DNA of 64,000 bases from Rhizobium sp. C4 (GTDB lineage Bacteria; Pseudomonadota; Alphaproteobacteria; Rhizobiales; Rhizobiaceae), in contig NZ_JAJNCX010000005.1 in the NCBI RefSeq assembly GCF_021026315.1, positions 124,001 to 188,000 on the forward strand, written 5' to 3'. The notes below the pieces were generated by a model. The model was not told the origin of the DNA. It saw only the letters and a program-made list of their open reading frames with translations, and did no database searches. A program made the position numbers and the translations under genes. Below, piece by piece: positions 47,998 to 56,549 of the stretch (its first letter is position 1; the number at the start of each line of letters is the position of its first letter).

Positions 47998-49536
47998 ATG
48001 TACGCATCGCACGGATTTCTGAGATCGGACATTGGTGACGTCGACGTGATCTTTCACGACGGGCTCTATCACCTCTTTCACCTTGTCCTGCCCAATCACG
48101 ACTTCATCGCACATGCGGTGAGCAGCGACGGCATGTCATGGCGTCGCGTGAAGAACGCGCTTTTCGTCGGCGATCCCGGCAGCTGGGACGACGACATGCT
48201 ATGGACCATGCATGTCACCGCTGACCCGGATCGACCAGGGGAGTGGCGCATGTTCTACACCGGGCTCTCGCGGGCGGAGTTCGGCCGCGTGCAGCGCGTA
48301 GGCCTCGCGCGTTCCAAGGATCTCTATCATTGGGAACGTTGCGCCGAGGGGAACTATCCGCTCGAAATTCGTGGTCCCTATTACGAGTCGAGCGTCGACG
48401 AAGGTCGGCAATGGGTCAGTTTCCGCGATCCCTTCTTCTATATCGATGAGAAGACCGGCGCGCGCCTGTTGCTCGCCTCAGGACGCGTCAAGAACGGGCC
48501 GGTGATCCGGCGCGGCTGCGTCGCCATGGCGCGGGAGATTGCGCCGGACACATTCGAATTCCTCTCTCCGCTGCACAAGCCCGGCCTTTACGACGACGTC
48601 GAGGTTCCCAACCTCTTCTGGCTCGGCGATCGCTATTATCTGATCGGCTCGATCCGTGAAGACATCAAGATCCACTATTGGTATTCCGAGCGTCTTGAAG
48701 GGCCTTACGAGAACTTCTTCGAAAATGTTCTTCTGCCATTTGGCAACTATGCAGGGCGCGTCTGCCAGAATGGTGGTCGGCCACTCCTGTTCTGCTTCTT
48801 TGCGCGGACGGAGATGATCAATGGTCGTGAGGTGACCAAGAAGGTTCTGCCACCACCGAAGGAGCTGGTGCAGGGGCAGGGGGGCCGGTTGAGGCTGAAA
48901 TCCTCCGGCGCATTCAATGGATTGGTCACAGGTGCGGAGAAAATTACCACCGCTTCACAATGTCGTTTTCTCTACGGAAACTCGCATGCGAGCCTGAGCG
49001 ACCAGGAAGGTGGTTTGAGCTTCGCGTGTCGGAGTGGTTACGAGGCCGTTCTGCTGCCGGGCCGGCACGATGATTTCCGGCTGCGATGCGTCATGACACT
49101 CCATGGATCTGGAAAGTGCGGCCTGGTCCTTCGGACCAACGAAGACGGCGACGGCTACTATCTCGCGCTGGATCTGGTGAAAGGCGTGGCGCAGATCCGG
49201 GCGTGGGGAGCCAATCCGACCCCGGTGTTTGAGCATTCCTTCCGCTACGATCCGCTTCAGGATGCGCATTTTCAGGAAGAGCAGCGGGAAAGCTGGTTGG
49301 TCGAAGTTGTCGCCCATGGCATGTATCTTGAGGTCTCGATCGGTGGCTATGTCGTTCTCAGCCTTGTGGACGAGACATATGCCGAGGGTGCGGTGGGGTT
49401 CTACGCCGAATCTGCCGCTCTTGGCATTGCCGAGCTGCAGATCGAGAGCCTGGCGCGGCCCGTCTCGGAACATGCGTCCGAGATGGTTTACACGGCAACG
49501 CGCCCGGACAACACGGACCGCGAGGCGGTGCGCTGA
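47998..49536 (+). CDS. Clan GH-J-like glycosidase (GH32/GH68/GH43-type five-bladed propeller) of the mannosylfructose locus
   Basis: A 512-residue protein with an N-terminal beta-propeller (about 1-300) and a C-terminal beta-sandwich-like part (about 330-490). Catalytic landmarks of fructoside hydrolases are suggested: Asp14 or Asp16 in the DIGDVDVIFHDG segment, RDP at residues 143-145, and Glu202 in VEVPNLFW. No signal peptide is visible, so it should act in the cytoplasm. Its stop overlaps the phosphatase start (TGATG). Cleavage or transfer on mannosylfructose or a related beta-fructofuranoside is the best inference. The start at 47998 is chosen on homology style; its ribosome site is poor and an in-frame TTG lies at 47962. 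Confidence 0.75.
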   Translation: MYASHGFLRSDIGDVDVIFHDGLYHLFHLVLPNHDFIAHAVSSDGMSWRRVKNALFVGDPGSWDDDMLWTMHVTADPDRPGEWRMFYTGLSRAEFGRVQRVGLARSKDLYHWERCAEGNYPLEIRGPYYESSVDEGRQWVSFRDPFFYIDEKTGARLLLASGRVKNGPVIRRGCVAMAREIAPDTFEFLSPLHKPGLYDDVEVPNLFWLGDRYYLIGSIREDIKIHYWYSERLEGPYENFFENVLLPFGNYAGRVCQNGGRPLLFCFFARTEMINGREVTKKVLPPPKELVQGQGGRLRLKSSGAFNGLVTGAEKITTASQCRFLYGNSHASLSDQEGGLSFACRSGYEAVLLPGRHDDFRLRCVMTLHGSGKCGLVLRTNEDGDGYYLALDLVKGVAQIRAWGANPTPVFEHSFRYDPLQDAHFQEEQRESWLVEVVAHGMYLEVSIGGYVVLSLVDETYAEGAVGFYAESAALGIAELQIESLARPVSEHASEMVYTATRPDNTDREAVR

Positions 49537-50270
49537 TGTCCGCCCCGGAGGAAGGCAAGTGGCTGATCGTCAGCGATATTGACGATACCCTGACAGGTGA
49601 CAGAGAGGCGCTGGAAAGTCTCTGGCTGGCGGTGCGTCGGCAACGAATGACGGTCTGCCTGGCGCTGAACTCCAGTCGGCCGGCCGAGAGCGTCGACAGG
49701 ACAATTCGGTCGTATTTTCCGAGTGATTTCACGCCGCGCGCGATCATTACCGGCCTTGGAACCGAGATCCGGATTGACGGCCAGTTTGTCCCCGAATGGG
49801 CACATCGCTTCGCGGCGTGGCCGCGGCAGGAGATCGTTGATGTCGTGCGGCGGTTCGGCCATCAGGCGCATGCCGACGAGTTTCAGACGCCGGGGAAGGC
49901 CAGTTTCTCCGTGCCTGACCGGGCTTCTGTCGAGGCCGTGCTCGCTGAGCTTTCCGCGCGCCGACTTCCGGCGCAGGCGCTTTATACCGGCAAAAGCGAT
50001 CTCGATCTGATTGCTCCGGAGGCGGGAAAGGATCTGGCGCTGCTATTCCTGGCGCGGCAGTTGCGGATCCCGGCGGGAAGGGTGATTGCTGCCGGGGATT
50101 CCGGCAACGATCTTGCCATGTTCGAAGCTGCCGATCGCGCCATCGCTGTCGGCAATGCGCGACCGGAGCTGGTTCATACGGCGCCCAGATACAAGACGTA
50201 TTTTGCCCGGGCTCCGCATGCCGCTGGCGTGTTGGAAGGCCTGCAGGCTTACGGCGTGCTCGCGTCGTAA
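49536..50270 (+). CDS. mfppA: Mannosylfructose-6-phosphate phosphatase (sucrose-phosphatase-like HAD)
   Basis: A 244-residue HAD enzyme of the sucrose-phosphate phosphatase type. Motif I is SDIDDTLTG with nucleophile Asp14 and acid/base Asp16; the Ser of NSSRP is motif II, Lys lies in YTGKSDLD, and motif IV is AAGDSGNDLAMF. In A. tumefaciens the homologous pair MfpsA/MfppA makes mannosylfructose, a compatible solute. Translation is coupled to the glycosidase gene by TGATG, and the synthase gene follows after 78 bp. Confidence 0.9.
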   Translation: MSAPEEGKWLIVSDIDDTLTGDREALESLWLAVRRQRMTVCLALNSSRPAESVDRTIRSYFPSDFTPRAIITGLGTEIRIDGQFVPEWAHRFAAWPRQEIVDVVRRFGHQAHADEFQTPGKASFSVPDRASVEAVLAELSARRLPAQALYTGKSDLDLIAPEAGKDLALLFLARQLRIPAGRVIAAGDSGNDLAMFEAADRAIAVGNARPELVHTAPRYKTYFARAPHAAGVLEGLQAYGVLAS

Positions 50271-50348
50271 CCTTCTGTTTCGGAACCTTGCCATCTGACA
50301 GGCGTTAAAACTTCAAGTCTCAGCTGTTGAACAAGAGGGAAAACGACC

Positions 50349-51650
50349 ATGGCCGGACAACATGTCGGTTCGCTTCTGATGATTTCGCTGCATGGATATG
50401 TGGCGGGTTCACCTGAATTGGGAAAGCCGGACACGGGAGGGCAGGTGGTCTTCGTGCTCGAACTGGCCAAGCGCTTTTCGCGTCTCGGCTACCGGGTCGA
50501 CGTCATGACCCGTCGCTTCGAGGACCAGCCGGCAGAGGACGAGATCAATGACAATCTGAAGATCATTCGCATCCCGTTCGGCGGCCGCCACTTCATTCGC
50601 AAGGAGGACATGCACGACTGGTACGGCGACTTCGTCACCAATGCGCTCGCCTATATCCGCAAACGCAAGCTCCACTACGATGTGATCAACTCCCACTATT
50701 GGGATGCCGGTGTCAGCGGACAGAAGATCGCCGAAGAGCTCCAGATCCCGCATGTCCACACGCCGCATTCGCTTGGCTGGTGGAAGCAGCATGACATGGT
50801 CGGCGCCGATCCGGACGAAATTACCGGCTATCGCTTCGATGAGCGTATTCGCCGCGAATTCGTTCTCTACCGCAGCTGCGATCATGTGATCGCGACCAGC
50901 GAGCAGCAGGTCGATCTGATTGCGGAACAATACGAGCTACCCCGCGACCACATCACGATGATCCCGCCGGGGATTGATGAGGGTCGCTTCACGCCCGCGA
51001 CGCCGGATATGGTGCGCCGGGCACGCGACAGGCTCGGCATGTCGGAAAAGGACATCTACATCGTCGGTCGTGCGGCCGAAAACAAGGGTTACGACCTCGC
51101 CATTCACGCCATGGCACATCTGAAGACCCTGCAGCCGGAGGCGCGTCTTGTCCTGGCCGCGGGCGCAAACTCGGACAGTGATATAGCGCTTCTCGATCAA
51201 TACAAGGCGATCGCCACCGAAATCGGGGTCGAGGACCGGATCGACTGGCGTGGCTATGTCGAGGACAAGGATCTCGCCGACTGCTATCGCGCGCCCGGCG
51301 TCTTCGCATTGCCGTCGCGCTACGAGCCTTTTGGCATGACGGCGGTCGAGGCGATGGCCTGTGGCACGCCGACAGTGATGACCGTCCATGGCGGGCTTCA
51401 CGAGCAGATCGAATTCGGCCGTCACGCGCTGGTCGCCGATCCGAAACGGGCAGAGGAATTTGCGGCAGTGCTGAACCTGCCGCTGCAATACCCCTGGATG
51501 CGGGAAACCCTGTCGGTTGAGGGCGCACGCTTTGCCCGCCGCGCCTTTGGCTGGACGGGCATTGCGCGTCGGACCATCAATCTGTTTGAACATTTCCGAG
51601 GACGGTACGATGCCTATCAGGCAGAAGATCTGGCATCGCCGGCGGCATAA
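50349..51650 (+). CDS. mfpsA: Mannosylfructose-phosphate synthase (GT4)
   Basis: A 433-residue GT-B glycosyltransferase of the sucrose-phosphate synthase group that would join mannose from GDP-mannose to fructose 6-phosphate. The glycine-rich N-terminal loop is KPDTGGQVVFVLELA; the HTPHSLGWWK segment and the E-x7-E motif (EPFGMTAVE) in SRYEPFGMTAVEAMACGTP are intact. The length is about that of A. tumefaciens MfpsA. GAGGG precedes the ATG at 50349. The gene ends at a strong bidirectional terminator facing the sugar transporter operon. Confidence 0.92.
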   Translation: MAGQHVGSLLMISLHGYVAGSPELGKPDTGGQVVFVLELAKRFSRLGYRVDVMTRRFEDQPAEDEINDNLKIIRIPFGGRHFIRKEDMHDWYGDFVTNALAYIRKRKLHYDVINSHYWDAGVSGQKIAEELQIPHVHTPHSLGWWKQHDMVGADPDEITGYRFDERIRREFVLYRSCDHVIATSEQQVDLIAEQYELPRDHITMIPPGIDEGRFTPATPDMVRRARDRLGMSEKDIYIVGRAAENKGYDLAIHAMAHLKTLQPEARLVLAAGANSDSDIALLDQYKAIATEIGVEDRIDWRGYVEDKDLADCYRAPGVFALPSRYEPFGMTAVEAMACGTPTVMTVHGGLHEQIEFGRHALVADPKRAEEFAAVLNLPLQYPWMRETLSVEGARFARRAFGWTGIARRTINLFEHFRGRYDAYQAEDLASPAA

Positions 51651-51656
51651 AGCAAG

Positions 51657-51695
51657 AAATCATTCGATAATAAAGCTATTATTATCGAATGATTT
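51657..51695. terminator. Bidirectional intrinsic terminator between mfpsA and the sugar-transporter ATPase gene
   Basis: A 17-bp perfect stem (51657-51673 with 51679-51695) and a 5-base loop lies between two converging genes. The stem is AT-rich, with A-runs on one side and T-runs on the other, so it can work for both strands. Confidence 0.85.
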
Positions 51696-51712
51696 TGCCT
51701 TCTGGTCCGTAC

Positions 51713-52513
51713 TCAGTCGATCGCACCGGGTCCGCGGATGGCGTTCGGAGGGCATTTGCCAAGAATGATCATGCCGAGCACCTCGTCCTTTGTGACTTCG
51801 GTCGTCTTGGCATAGCCAACAACCTGGCCGTTCTTCATCACGGCGACGCGATCGGCGAGATCGAAGACGTCGTGGATGTCGTGGCTGATCAGGAAGATCC
51901 CGATGCCGTCCTTTTTCAGTTCCTTGATCAGCTCGCCGACCTGTGCGGTTTCGTGCGGGCCGAGAGCAGCTGTCGGCTCATCCATGATGAGGATGCGCGC
52001 ATTGAACAGGATGGCGCGGGCAATCGCCACCGACTGGCGCTGACCACCGGAAAGCGCCTTCACCGGCTCCTTGAAACGGCGGAAGTTCGGGTTGAGCCGA
52101 CCCATGACCTTGCGGGCCTCGGCCTCCATGGCCGCGTCGTCCAGCGTTCCCCAGCTTGTCAGCAGTTCGCGGCCCAGGAACAGATTGGCGGCGGCATCGA
52201 CATTGTCTGCCAGCGCGAGCGTCTGGTAGATCGTTTCGATCCCATAGGCCTTGGCGTCGCGCGGGTTGCCGATCTGCACTTCCTCGCCATTGATCCGGAT
52301 CTGGCCGGAATCGCGCGGATAGGCGCCGGAGAGGATCTTGATCAGGGTCGACTTGCCGGCGCCGTTGTGGCCGAGGAGGCCAACGACTTCGCCCGGGAAG
52401 AGGTCGACACTCGCGTGGTCGACGGCCTTGATGCCGCCGAATGCAATCGAGATGTCGCGCATCTCGACAAGCGGCGTCGCACCATTGTGAGGATTTCCGA
52501 TGTTGGCGTTCAT
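51713..52513 (-). CDS. Sugar ABC transporter ATP-binding protein (single-domain, XylG-like)
   Basis: A 266-residue ABC ATPase of the carbohydrate uptake CUT2 type, but with only one nucleotide-binding domain where XylG/GguA have two. Walker [10 protein letters not shown] is at residues 48-56; the signature is [14 protein letters not shown] and Walker [13 protein letters not shown]. It presumably works as a homodimer, as in the FrcA-type transporters of rhizobia. The ATG at 52513 is preferred because AAGGAGG lies six bases upstream; the ATG at 52519 lies directly against that site. Confidence 0.87.
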
Positions 52514-52524
52514 GTTCATCCTCC

Positions 52525-53853
52525 TTACTTGATGCGACGGCGATAGACGGTGTCGAGCCAGACGGCGACGACGAGCACGCCGCCAACCACCATTTGCTGC
52601 ATGGCAGCCTCGAACCCGATCAGGACCATGCCAGACTGCAGCGACTGCATGACGAGCGCGCCGAGCATGGCGCCCCAGATGGTGCCGGAGCCGCCGGCGA
52701 GCGACGTGCCGCCGATGACGGCTGCTGCGATGACGTAGAGTTCATCGACCTTGCCGAGGTCGGCTGTCGCCGAATTGAGGCGGGCCGAGGCGATGATCGC
52801 GGAAATGCCGACCAGTGTGCCCATAAGCGCGAAGACCATGACGGTCATGCGCTTGGTATTGATGCCGGCGAGTTCCGCCGCTTCCGGATTGCCACCGATG
52901 GCGAAGACATAGCGGCCAAAGCGGGTGCGGTTGGCAATGAAGGTCATGACGATCAGAACGGCGCCGGCAATGAGAACCGGAATGGCGAAACCGTGACCGA
53001 TGAAGAGACCACCTGGTGGAACGGGGATGTTGTGGCTGGTCGCATATTCCTTCACGATGCCCGCAGGCCACGGATAATTGTTTGCAATGTAGGCCGCGCC
53101 AAGGACGAGAACGGAGCCGAGCACGGCGATGAACACCTCTGCCCAGACCGGACGCAGCGGGAAGCCGAAGCGCTGGCGCTGCCTGCGGCCGGCAATCAGC
53201 GAGAGAATGATCAGAACGCAGACGACAATGGCCACGACCCAGCTCGCGGTCACGCCGATCGCGCCATAGGGTCCGCCACCGATCAGCTTGAAATTGGGGT
53301 CGAGCGGCGAAATCGTCTCGCCGCGCGTGACCCACCAGGCAGCGCCGCGCCAGACGAGCATGCCGCCGAGGGTCACGATGAAAGAGGGGATCTGCAGATA
53401 GGCAACCAGCAAGCCCTGGAAGGCGCCGATGGCGGTTGCAACGACGAGCGCAACGATGACGGCGAGAATCCAGATCATCGGATGCCCTAGGCCGAGGCCG
53501 AGAACCTTCGGGAAGATCCAGACCTGCGCGGCGCCGGTGATCATGGCGGTCACGCCGAGAACGGAGCCGACCGACAGGTCGATATGGCGCGTGACGATGA
53601 TCAGAACCATGCCGGTCGCCATGACGGCGATCGACGCAGTCTGTACCGAGAGGTTCCAGAGGTTTCGGTAGGTGAGGAAGGCACCGTTATTGTTGAATAT
53701 CGCGCCGTATTCATGGAAACCGACCCAGATGAGGATCAGCGCGCCGAACATGCCGAGCATGCGCGCGTCGATTTCGGTGGCCCGGAGGAAGGCGGTCAAA
53801 AGGCCTTCCTTGCCTTGTGTCTGTGTCGTTACGGCGGTCTGAGTCTGTGTCAC
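52525..53853 (-). CDS. xylH: Sugar ABC transporter permease, XylH-like
   Basis: A 442-residue permease of the XylH/RbsC class. Family motifs are [16 protein letters not shown], the [20 protein letters not shown] segment, [19 protein letters not shown] and [16 protein letters not shown]. It is longer than E. coli XylH because of an extended loop around residues 240-310. The start is a GTG at 53853 with AGAGG eight bases upstream. It follows the binding-protein gene after 172 bp with an intrinsic terminator in between, and precedes the ATPase gene by 11 bp. The xylose symbol is by resemblance. Confidence 0.85.
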
Positions 53854-53968
53854 TGCCCCTGCCTCTCAAGCTTATCGTTCTTGTGATGGAATTGCTGTCG
53901 CATCCGGGCGCGATATGCCCGATCTGGCATCCATTTCGGGCGAGCCGCCAGCAAACGTCTCTGCCTTC

Positions 53969-53999
53969 AAAAAACCGCGCCGCTGGAGCGACGCGGTTT
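53969..53999 (-). terminator. Intrinsic terminator/attenuator after the XylF-like gene
   Basis: Read leftward, AAACCGCG (53999-53992) and CGCGGTTT (53979-53972) form a stem with inner GCT/AGC pairing, followed directly by a run of six T (53974-53969). This is a textbook intrinsic terminator inside the operon, so only part of the transcripts should reach the permease and ATPase genes. Confidence 0.8.
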
Positions 54000-54025
54000 C
54001 CGATCATGACGATCGTTTCAGGCGA

Positions 54026-55066
54026 TCAATCGCAAGCCTTAACGGTGCCGGCCTTGACGCCTGCGCAGGCGGTTGCCTTGTCGATCCAGCCAGCCTTGAT
54101 GACGTCGCCCAGCGTGTCCCTGGTAACGGCGAAGGGCTTGAGGAGAACAGCGTTCATCTCAACCTTGTGTGCGCCGTCCTTGAACTTCTGAACGTTCGGA
54201 ACGGACGAGGCATCCTTGCCGTCGGCAAGCATGAGGGCTGCTTCTGCTGCGGCCTTGCCGAGTTCGCGCGAGTCCTTCCAGATCGAGACGAGCTGGGTGC
54301 CGAGCGCAACGCGGTTGATGGCGGCTGCGTCGCCGTCCTGGCCGGTGACCGGAACGGAGCCAGCGAGGCCCTGGGCAGACAGCGCTGCCACAACACCACC
54401 GGCCATGCCGTCGTTCTGCGACAGAACGGCGTCAACCTTGTTGTTGTTGGCGGTGAGGATCTGCTCCATGTTCTTCTGGGCGTTTTCCGGCTTCCAGCCA
54501 TCCGAGGAGGCTTCGCCGACGATCTTGATCGCACCGGAGTCAACCTTCGGCTTGATGACTTCCATCATGCCCTTCAGCAGGAACGCGGAGTTCGGGTCGC
54601 CCTGGTCGCCCTTGATGATGGCGAAGTTGCCCTTGTCCTTCACCTTGACGACTTCCTCGGCCATCATCTTGCCGACGCCGACATTGTTGAAGGTCATGTA
54701 GAGAACGCTCGGATCTTCGATCTGAACGTCATAGGCAATCGTCGGAATGCCTTCGTCCTTGGCCTTCTGGACGGCCGGCATGATGGCTTCAGAGTCCCAC
54801 GGAACAACCAGCAGAACGTTGGCACCCTGCGAAATCAGGGATTCGATGTCCGTCAGCTGCTTGGCAGCAGACCCCTGCGCGTCGGCGGAAATGTACTTGT
54901 CGCCAGCGGCTTCGACGATCTTCTTGATGACGGCTTCGTCGCGCTTCCAGCGTTCTTCCTGGAAGATCTTCCAGGATACGGCGATGGTCTTGCCAGCGGC
55001 GAAAACCGGGCTTGCCGCAGACATGACAAACACTGCGCCTGCAAGCGCAGCAGCAAACTTCTTCAT
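54026..55066 (-). CDS. xylF: Periplasmic sugar-binding protein, XylF-like
   Basis: A 346-residue type I periplasmic receptor. The signal peptide is MKKFAAALAGAVFVMSAASP with cleavage after PVFAA. The mature protein matches XylF in layout: ERWKRDEAVIKK near the start, VLLVVPWDSEAI, AYDVQIEDPSVLYMTFDN-like strand, TANNNKVDAVLSQNDGMAGG and VPVTGQDGD. It differs clearly from FrcB, so xylose or a related aldose is a better guess than fructose, but mannosylfructose-derived sugars cannot be ruled out given the neighbouring genes. GGAGG lies five bases before the ATG at 55066. Confidence 0.88.
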   Translation of the reverse strand: MKKFAAALAGAVFVMSAASPVFAAGKTIAVSWKIFQEERWKRDEAVIKKIVEAAGDKYISADAQGSAAKQLTDIESLISQGANVLLVVPWDSEAIMPAVQKAKDEGIPTIAYDVQIEDPSVLYMTFNNVGVGKMMAEEVVKVKDKGNFAIIKGDQGDPNSAFLLKGMMEVIKPKVDSGAIKIVGEASSDGWKPENAQKNMEQILTANNNKVDAVLSQNDGMAGGVVAALSAQGLAGSVPVTGQDGDAAAINRVALGTQLVSIWKDSRELGKAAAEAALMLADGKDASSVPNVQKFKDGAHKVEMNAVLLKPFAVTRDTLGDVIKAGWIDKATACAGVKAGTVKACD

Positions 55067-55159
55067 GACGTCCTCCCAAATGCTCTCAAGCATCAAAAGC
55101 AAGAATGGCACAGGGACTCCCGACCCCGGCCTTCGCAGAGACTTTTTTTTAGCCTCAAA

Positions 55160-55182
55160 AAAATAAGTGACACGCTTATTTT
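55160..55182. promoter_or_regulatory. Candidate ROK-regulator operator, site 1
   Basis: AAAATAAG and CTTATTTT form perfect 8-bp arms around a 7-base spacer, about 95 bp upstream of the XylF-like gene. AT-rich dyads of this form are usual for ROK repressors such as Mlc, NagC and XylR. Confidence 0.5.
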
Positions 55183-55219
55183 GGTATGTCAAGATAAAAA
55201 CACAACTCGCTAAGTTGCT

Positions 55220-55244
55220 GCAATGCAATAGATTTTTGCATTGC
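55220..55244. promoter_or_regulatory. Candidate ROK-regulator operator, site 2
   Basis: GCAATGCAA and TTGCATTGC form perfect 9-bp arms around a 7-base spacer, 58 bp upstream of the ROK regulator start. It has the same spacer length as site 1, with centres about 61 bp apart, which would suit looping or autoregulation. Confidence 0.5.
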
Positions 55245-55301
55245 GAGAGCTTCTGGCGCTTGGGGGAGGAGCGGCCCTTGGAGGGCTGCTCGGAGGAAAG
55301 C

Positions 55302-56549
55302 ATGTCGAGCATTGTACGCCAGGACGACGTCCGGCGGCTGAATCAATTCGGAATTCTGCGGGCGCTCAGGCGGCACGGGCCGCTGTCGCGAACCGCGCTC
55401 AGTTCCCTGACCGGTCTTTCGCCGTCGACTGTCACTGTCATCACAAACAGCCTGATCGAGCGCGGTGTGCTGACCGACCGGCTGCCGGAGACGTCCACCG
55501 TCAACAAGCGCGGGCGGCCGCAGGTGTTGATTGCGCCGAATGGCAAGCATGCGACAGTTGCCACCATTCGCCTGGCGCGCGGTCTGGTGGAGGCAACACT
55601 GTTTGACTATGCCGGTCGCGAACTGGGCCGGCGCGAGCTGCGCCGCCGGACGCTGTCGCTGGCGCCCGAGAGCATTGTGCGGCTGATGGTGGAGTTGATA
55701 GACGGGCTGGGCGAGGAGACAGGGCGCAGCCGCGCCTCGATCGTGCGGATTGCCGTTGCCGTCGAGGGGATCGTCGATAGCGCCGGGAGGCTTTTGCTGA
55801 GCACGCCGTTTGCTGATGTCCACGAAATGGACATAGCCTCGCTGCTGGAGGCGGAGTTTGGTGCCAGCGCGGAAGTCATGAACGACTGCAATGCCGTCGC
55901 CGAAGGTCTGACATGGACCGCTCCAGAAGCTTCGGGAGAGAATTTCGCAGCCTTGCTGATGGCCAATGGCGTCGGCCTCGGGTTGGCGATCAATGGCAAG
56001 ATGCTTTCGGGTCCCAAGTCCTCCGGCATGGAATTTGGGCATATGATCTACAAGCCGGGTGGGGCGCTGTGTCGCTGCGGCCGCCGTGGCTGCGTGGAGG
56101 CCTATGCGGGCATCTATGCGATCCGCCGCGCGGTTGCGGGCGAGGACCCCAATATCGTCATCGAGGATGTTCCGGAAAACGACACGCTGGTCGACATCGT
56201 CGAAAAGGCGCGGCGGGTGGACGGGCCGGAGCGGGAAGCCTTGAGGGAAGCGGGCCGGGCGCTTGGCAACGGGCTCGTCAATCTCTTCACGCTCTTCGAC
56301 AGTGTACCGCTCATCATGGCCGGTGCTTCGACGATTGCGCTCGAGTTCATGATGGACGAGATCCGGGCGGCGTTTGCCAATCAGAGCTTTGGACGCCGGG
56401 TGGAACCCGATATCGTCGATGTCTACCCGGATGCCCCCAAACTGATGCGTCAGGGGGCCGTTTTGAAGGCACTGGCAGCCTATGACATGTCTTTGCCGGA
56501 CCAGGAGGAACTGGTGCAGGAAGAGGTTGTTTCTGCCGGGCGGGCATAG
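55302..56549 (+). CDS. ROK-family transcriptional regulator of the sugar transporter
   Basis: A 415-residue ROK repressor. The N-terminal winged helix-turn-helix is near residues 10-75 (LSRTALSSLTGLSPSTVTVI), and the C-terminal sugar kinase-like domain carries the ROK zinc-binding motif CRCGRRGCVEAY and the GMEFGHMI signature. The kinase-type Asp (MNDCNAVAEG) is retained in the ligand pocket. Divergent position suggests it controls the XylF-H-G operon in response to the transported sugar. GGAGGAAAGC lies just before the ATG at 55302. Confidence 0.9.
   Translation: MSSIVRQDDVRRLNQFGILRALRRHGPLSRTALSSLTGLSPSTVTVITNSLIERGVLTDRLPETSTVNKRGRPQVLIAPNGKHATVATIRLARGLVEATLFDYAGRELGRRELRRRTLSLAPESIVRLMVELIDGLGEETGRSRASIVRIAVAVEGIVDSAGRLLLSTPFADVHEMDIASLLEAEFGASAEVMNDCNAVAEGLTWTAPEASGENFAALLMANGVGLGLAINGKMLSGPKSSGMEFGHMIYKPGGALCRCGRRGCVEAYAGIYAIRRAVAGEDPNIVIEDVPENDTLVDIVEKARRVDGPEREALREAGRALGNGLVNLFTLFDSVPLIMAGASTIALEFMMDEIRAAFANQSFGRRVEPDIVDVYPDAPKLMRQGAVLKALAAYDMSLPDQEELVQEEVVSAGRA

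Follow-up and report, generated by a model that had tools for sequence, protein, structure and literature searches.

Why should a bacterial operon for the synthesis of a disaccharide also carry a gene for a glycosidase-like protein? The question is raised by a stretch of 64,000 nucleotides from Rhizobium sp. C4 (contig NZ_JAJNCX010000005.1, positions 124,001 to 188,000; the whole stretch is called the window), in which a glycosidase-like gene, labelled GHx here (window positions 47998-49536), lies directly upstream of genes for a phosphatase and a family GT4 glycosyltransferase. The original prediction, made from the letters alone, took the latter two for the mannosylfructose synthesis pair and GHx for a cytoplasmic clan GH-J-like enzyme serving turnover of that solute. 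The reading preferred here, at a probability of roughly 0.65, takes GHx for an intracellular beta-fructofuranosidase that belongs to a deep GH32-like clade, as yet uncharacterised, and would occupy the cleavage position in operons for sucrose or mannosylfructose. Its predicted fold, conserved residues, gene arrangement and partner statistics, and the substitution by sucrose synthase in related operons, were computed directly.

Fold and family of GHx

The GHx reading frame was intact over 512 codons. The protein begins MYASHGFLRSDIGDVDV; its relatives align with it from that residue onward, and the first strand of the predicted model starts at residue 11; no signal peptide was seen on inspection of the protein start (no predictor run), and the cytoplasmic location originally proposed is borne out by that inspection. 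The window protein scored 30 bits against PF00251 (GH32N, gathering threshold 22.1) and 13.8 bits against PF04616 (GH43), below the gathering threshold of 32.2, and was the sole PF00251 match in its own genome at E<=0.01. At the same E value the GH32N model matched 52 of 52 GHx members, the GH43 model 35 and the GH68 model 26. A PDB search with the single GHx sequence returned no match; a profile of 52 relatives placed GH32 enzymes at the top (E 2.7e-6), and hhalign comparison of the GHx profile with four ordinary GH32 proteins of Rhizobiaceae gave E 1.4e-7.

GHx was modelled with AlphaFold2 (pLDDT 88.5, pTM 0.88), and a Foldseek search with the model returned the GH32-type structure 7znr first (E 4e-22). 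By VIA the best PDB match, again 7znr, reached Z 32.1 (root-mean-square deviation 3.2, 435 residues aligned, 17% identity, both domains), and the Thermotoga maritima invertase 1uyp Z 30.7. The first 29 rows of structural matches were GH32-type enzymes, the family being assigned in part by entry title. The predicted model has the GH32 architecture of a propeller followed by a C-terminal beta-sandwich, with the top matches spanning both. GH68 is a single-domain fold; GH68 chains covered 279-293 residues of the model, and membership of that family was rejected because GHx has the additional beta-sandwich. On the predicted model GHx is clan GH-J-like, as first proposed, and within that clan it resembles GH32 but lacks the WMNDPNG motif; the profile and hhalign alignments and the active-site residues agree with this.

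Active-site residues

Asp14, the RDP motif at 143-145 and Glu202 were invariant in 81 of 81 GHx sequences. In the profile alignment the RDP of GHx fell on the FRDP of GH32, and Glu202 was paired with the catalytic Glu, the residue replaced by Ala in the 6r3u chain (E221A); hhalign with the four GH32 proteins gave the identical pairing of RDP and Glu. Asp14 was taken as the probable nucleophile because it is the sole invariant acid within the first 34 residues. At their ends the structural alignments pair residue 8 or 7 of the model with chain residue 35; without gaps, residue 14 would then fall on 41 or 42, which would agree with the nucleophile role to within one residue. Of the Asp/RDP/Glu set of the original prediction, Asp14, Asp144 and Glu202 are present and invariant, the last two aligned with GH32 catalytic residues; Asp16, also named there, is not a conserved candidate.

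Partner genes of GHx

A contig scan of genomes gave 186 GHx relatives, and the counts below rest on the best 80 of the 186. In GC-rich loci the genes were called with a simple open reading frame (ORF) script and include shadow ORFs. A GT4 or fused synthase lay within 1.6 kb of GHx in 73 of the 80 loci, and in 72 of these 73 the synthase was accompanied by a phosphatase, as a gene or as a domain. In split loci the phosphatase gene lies between GHx and the synthase; the exception, L086, has a ROK kinase there instead. In the window the GHx stop codon TGA (49534-49536) overlaps the phosphatase ATG at 49536; of 42 loci with the order GHx-phosphatase-GT4, 33 likewise have a start codon that runs into the stop of GHx, as ATGA-type or TGATG-type. 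Both the stop/start overlap and the coupling of GHx to disaccharide synthase and phosphatase genes had been noted originally, and the survey supports them.

Outside the window-type set, 29 of 38 loci had the synthase and phosphatase as a single fused ORF of 719-774 aa. All eight fused ORFs tested matched both the sucrose-phosphate synthase model TIGR02472 and the phosphatase model TIGR02471, and six of the eight passed the cut-off of the latter. The GHx tree carried labels from ten phyla, several of them as metagenome bins only; the Chloroflexota and Krumholzibacteriota labels fell among loci without an adjacent synthase, and three changes were needed for the split-synthase label. Near-copies were left out of the trees (24 loci from the GT4 tree, 20 from the GHx tree).

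Two genomes each held two GHx loci: Ectorhizobium quercum BDR2-2 (L054 and L060) and Maritimibacter bin NAT7 (L072 and L075). Distant GHx-like proteins of about 25% identity (L007 and L008), which lie amid sugar-import genes, were set aside as another family. Distant GH32-like proteins, again with about 25% identity to GHx and amid sugar-import genes, were encoded at L030:9110-10594 (PF00251, 115 bits) and L031:6811-8349.

Identity of the phosphatase and GT4 pair

Pfam and NCBIfam searches identified the neighbours of GHx only as an S6PP-type HAD phosphatase (sucrose-6F-phosphate phosphohydrolase type) and an MshA/SPS-type GT4; the specific cut-off of no named synthase was reached, the window GT4 scoring 193.5 bits against TIGR02472 (sucrose-phosphate synthase, curated cut-off 576). 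GT4 proteins of this kind were found at E<=1e-110 in 18 of 151 Rhizobiaceae genomes. In five of the 18, counting the window, the GT4 was of the window type (74-100% identical) and adjoined GHx. The other 13 held a second type, with GT4 46-51% identical to that of the window, phosphatases 27-36% identical, the order GT4 then phosphatase (the reverse of the window) and GHx not adjoining. The second-type pairs are taken to be the likely mfpsA/mfppA; the characterised Agrobacterium pair reportedly has the order GT4 then phosphatase. In the GT4 tree, which carries long-branch warnings, the window-type and the second-type proteins each had a clade of their own within a common group, which did not include the fused sucrose-phosphate synthases. 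A plasmid search for the Agrobacterium C58 synthase gave only one Paracoccus copy at E<=1e-60. Of the original assignment to mannosylfructose synthesis, then, the GT4 and the S6PP-type phosphatase are present and the name is unconfirmed, given the synthase identity and the cut-offs; to judge from sequence, the window solute may be sucrose or mannosylfructose.

Close GHx proteins occurred in six Rhizobiaceae genomes, all six with a GT4 of either type, as against 12 of 145 others (p 1.2e-6). One of the six (G061) holds a lone GHx (72%), with a second-type GT4-phosphatase pair elsewhere in the genome; three further Rhizobiaceae genomes gave distant GHx-like matches only. The particular link of GHx to mannosylfructose was rejected, since the partner survey returned fused neighbours resembling sucrose-phosphate synthase and phosphatase in 29 of 80 loci, and 12 of the 18 Rhizobiaceae genomes with this GT4 have no GHx. 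Frequent occurrence of GHx away from an mfpsA/mfppA-like pair had been named in the original prediction as a refuting outcome.

Sucrose synthase in the place of GHx

Co-occurrence was counted in 198 genomes drawn from the phylum to which the seed G802 belongs (a Cyclobacteriaceae bin, hence Bacteroidota), with at most eight synthase and seven GHx candidates scored per genome. A fused synthase was found in 16 genomes and GHx in eight. With the seed left out, seven of seven GHx genomes were among the 16 fused-synthase genomes of 197 (Fisher p 5.6e-9; the Fisher p values ignore kinship). Among the nine synthase genomes without GHx, eight had a sucrose synthase directly adjoining the fused synthase (TIGR02470, 1023-1066 bits in all eight), whereas none of the seven GHx genomes of the draw had a sucrose synthase at E<=1e-120 (Fisher p 0.0014); the ninth (G835) had neither. 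The synthases linked to sucrose synthase were interspersed among the GHx-linked ones in the GT4 tree. A filtering step also lost the sucrose synthase of L162.

Sugar kinases and fusions

Kinases were searched for with two PfkB queries, one ROK and one ManC, and the kinase counts are lower bounds. PfkB kinases were found at eight of the nine Bacteroidota loci without GHx and at least two of the seven with it (G975 and G830). Of the 80 loci, L076, L078, L082, L086 and L116 have a PfkB or ROK kinase next to the GHx module, and a further case is L174. In an Anaerolineaceae genome (L171:5530-7605) an S6PP phosphatase next to a window-type GT4 carries a fused GH100-like domain (65.6 bits on PF12899, cut-off 23.6; 52 bits on GDE_C); this genome is also that of L088, with GHx located elsewhere.

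In a Woeseiaceae bin (L082:7542-14811) genes for GMP_PMI, a ScrK-like ROK kinase, GHx, an S6PP phosphatase and a 590-aa GT4 are clustered. The GMP_PMI gene scored 636 bits on TIGR01479; a GDP-mannose donor would be fitting there because that gene is in the cluster, and a GDP-mannose-based pathway is possible.

Proposed function

In principle, the GT4 would join a hexosyl group to fructose-6-phosphate and the phosphatase would then take the phosphate off, giving a non-reducing alpha-hexosyl-(1,2)-beta-fructofuranoside, either sucrose or mannosylfructose. The GHx protein, which probably comes from the same transcript, would bind the fructosyl end; the fructose, held by Asp144, would be transferred to Asp14 as a fructosyl-enzyme while Glu202 acts as acid/base. 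Free hexose and fructose would be released and returned to metabolism by kinases. GHx would thereby fill the slot held by sucrose synthase or amylosucrase in other sucrose operons. Mannosucrose belongs to the beta-fructofuranosides and shares that end with sucrose (PMC2918589). One enzyme could serve both synthase types because a GH32-like site would recognise this shared beta-fructofuranosyl end. From the evidence above we infer the substrate, hydrolysis over transfer, the nucleophile and the part in solute turnover; the turnover idea of the original prediction is supported to that extent.

Opposing evidence and alternatives

Several observations weigh against GHx as the cleaving enzyme of these operons. 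On the protein side, the WMNDPNG motif, which holds the nucleophile Asp in GH32 and was invariant in the four GH32 proteins compared, is missing from GHx; the putative equivalence of Asp14 with the nucleophile draws only on its invariance and the alignment ends; the first GH43 chain (row 30, Z 27.6 over 269 residues) is not far behind GH32; and the GH43 and GH68 Pfam models match many members, as counted above. Seven of the 80 loci had no adjacent synthase. The contig ends near GHx in four of them (L080, L087, L097, L115), L081, L088 and L102 being true misses; a synthase-like gene was present elsewhere in six of the seven genomes, and a search of the L102 genome found none. In Rhizobiaceae there are the 13 GT4-phosphatase pairs without GHx next to them and the 12 genomes lacking GHx altogether. 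Most GHx loci gave no kinase match with the few queries used, and the neighbouring kinases matched fructokinase, ribokinase and related NCBIfam models, with none of those tested passing a cut-off. Replacement of sucrose synthase by GHx is not strict, because two gammaproteobacterial genomes hold both. Coupled to the synthase of its substrate, a hydrolase would also run a futile cycle if it were not regulated.

The product of the fused synthases calls for caution. The fused GHx partners tested scored 490-582 bits on TIGR02472, only one of eight exceeding the cut-off of 576, and in the Bacteroidota draw the cut-off was passed by nine of nine synthases without GHx and none of seven with it (loci L136-L151, an exact split). 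Since GHx-linked synthases lie mostly under the cut-off, their product may be other than plain sucrose. A separate product class is kept as a caution, sequences linked to sucrose synthase sitting among them in the tree.

The same scores would fit GHx as a biosynthetic transfructosylase that uses the neighbours' sucrose or mannosylfructose as fructosyl donor for a trisaccharide or other fructoside, an undescribed solute. Close linkage to the synthase suits a biosynthetic step, and fructosyltransferases share the fold (3ugf and 4ffh were among the structural matches). What points to cleavage instead is that sucrose synthase takes its place in related operons and that a GH100-like domain is fused to the phosphatase in L171, and sugar kinases next to some modules fit the release of free sugar; this alternative is considered unlikely. 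A broader form, slightly less probable again, places GHx in a class of cytoplasmic fructosyl enzymes not recognised so far; these would add to newly formed sucrose or mannosylfructose to give other fructosylated solutes, and operons of many phyla would thereby make undescribed compounds. It is improbable that GHx has another substrate, as a GH43-, GH68- or GH130-like enzyme would, and stands beside the synthase only incidentally: the GH43 and GH68 matches and the GH43 chains speak for it, but GH32N matches every member, the top 29 structural rows are GH32-type with both domains aligned, and the partner statistics make chance placement very unlikely. Least probable of all is a bypass or proof-reading hydrolase acting on the phosphorylated intermediate, hexosyl-fructose-6F-phosphate, which would suit the overlap with the phosphatase gene and several invariant Arg and Lys residues in GHx but is opposed by the near-universal phosphatase beside the synthase (L086 excepted) and by a phosphate site not having been identified in GHx.

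The locus in the window

Features of the locus are listed in Table 1. The near-perfect repeat downstream of the GT4 gene gave -20.5 kcal/mol and z -6.25 when a 56-nt stretch was folded, and is likely a two-way terminator between convergent operons. Beyond it, window positions 51713-56549 encode a sugar ATP-binding cassette (ABC) importer with an XylF-like binding protein and a GguB-like permease, both under NCBIfam cut-offs; a ROK/NagC-like regulator belongs to this region.

Table 1. Coordinates (window positions) of features at the GHx locus
Feature	Position	Strand	Description or basis
GHx	47998..49536	+	512-aa cytoplasmic enzyme, GH32-like (clan GH-J); probable nucleophile Asp14 and acid/base Glu202, with Asp144 in RDP
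TGATG stop/start overlap, GHx to phosphatase gene	49534..49538	+	sequence; recurs in relatives
HAD phosphatase, sucrose-6F-phosphate phosphohydrolase type (PF05116)	49536..50270	+	Pfam/NCBIfam
GT4 synthase, MshA/SPS/MFPS-like	50349..51650	+	Pfam/NCBIfam, identity, tree
Inverted repeat, strong hairpin	51652..51698	.	between GT4 gene and convergent ABC-transporter operon

Comparison with known systems

A function is here proposed for a protein clade labelled across ten phyla, the single annotated close homologue of which is named only 'hypothetical protein'. If correct, it would show how sucrose-type protectants could be recovered by bacteria that produce them but have no sucrose synthase, and would suggest a rule: each operon for such synthesis has a cleaving enzyme, drawn from several unrelated kinds. 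GHx is also a candidate enzyme for the degradation of mannosylfructose; none was described in the literature titles and abstracts listed, most subscription journals being outside their scope. No report of a GH32 enzyme beside a bacterial sucrose-phosphate synthase was found among the matches listed (literature titles and abstract beginnings).

The GH32 beta-fructofuranosidases and levanases (BT1760, 7znr/6r3r; T. maritima invertase, 1uyp) share with GHx the whole-chain propeller and beta-sandwich and the aligned RDP and catalytic Glu; GHx differs from them in its identity of about 17%, the lack of WMNDPNG, the lack of a visible signal peptide and its tie to disaccharide synthesis. The mfpsA/mfppA pair of Agrobacterium consists like that of the window of a GT4 and an S6PP-type phosphatase; the pairs presumed to be of that kind differ from the window in sequence (synthase and phosphatase identities as above), in their reversed gene order and in the addition of GHx in the window. 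In published gene sets, sucrose synthesis is paired with sucrose synthase and fructokinase (PMC4463540) or, in spsA-sppA-frkA-amsA, with amylosucrase (PMC11046441). Such operons, like the GHx loci in the reading proposed here, combine synthesis genes, a sucrose-cleaving enzyme and a sugar kinase, and at the GHx loci the presumed cleaving enzyme is GH32-like rather than a sucrose synthase or amylosucrase.

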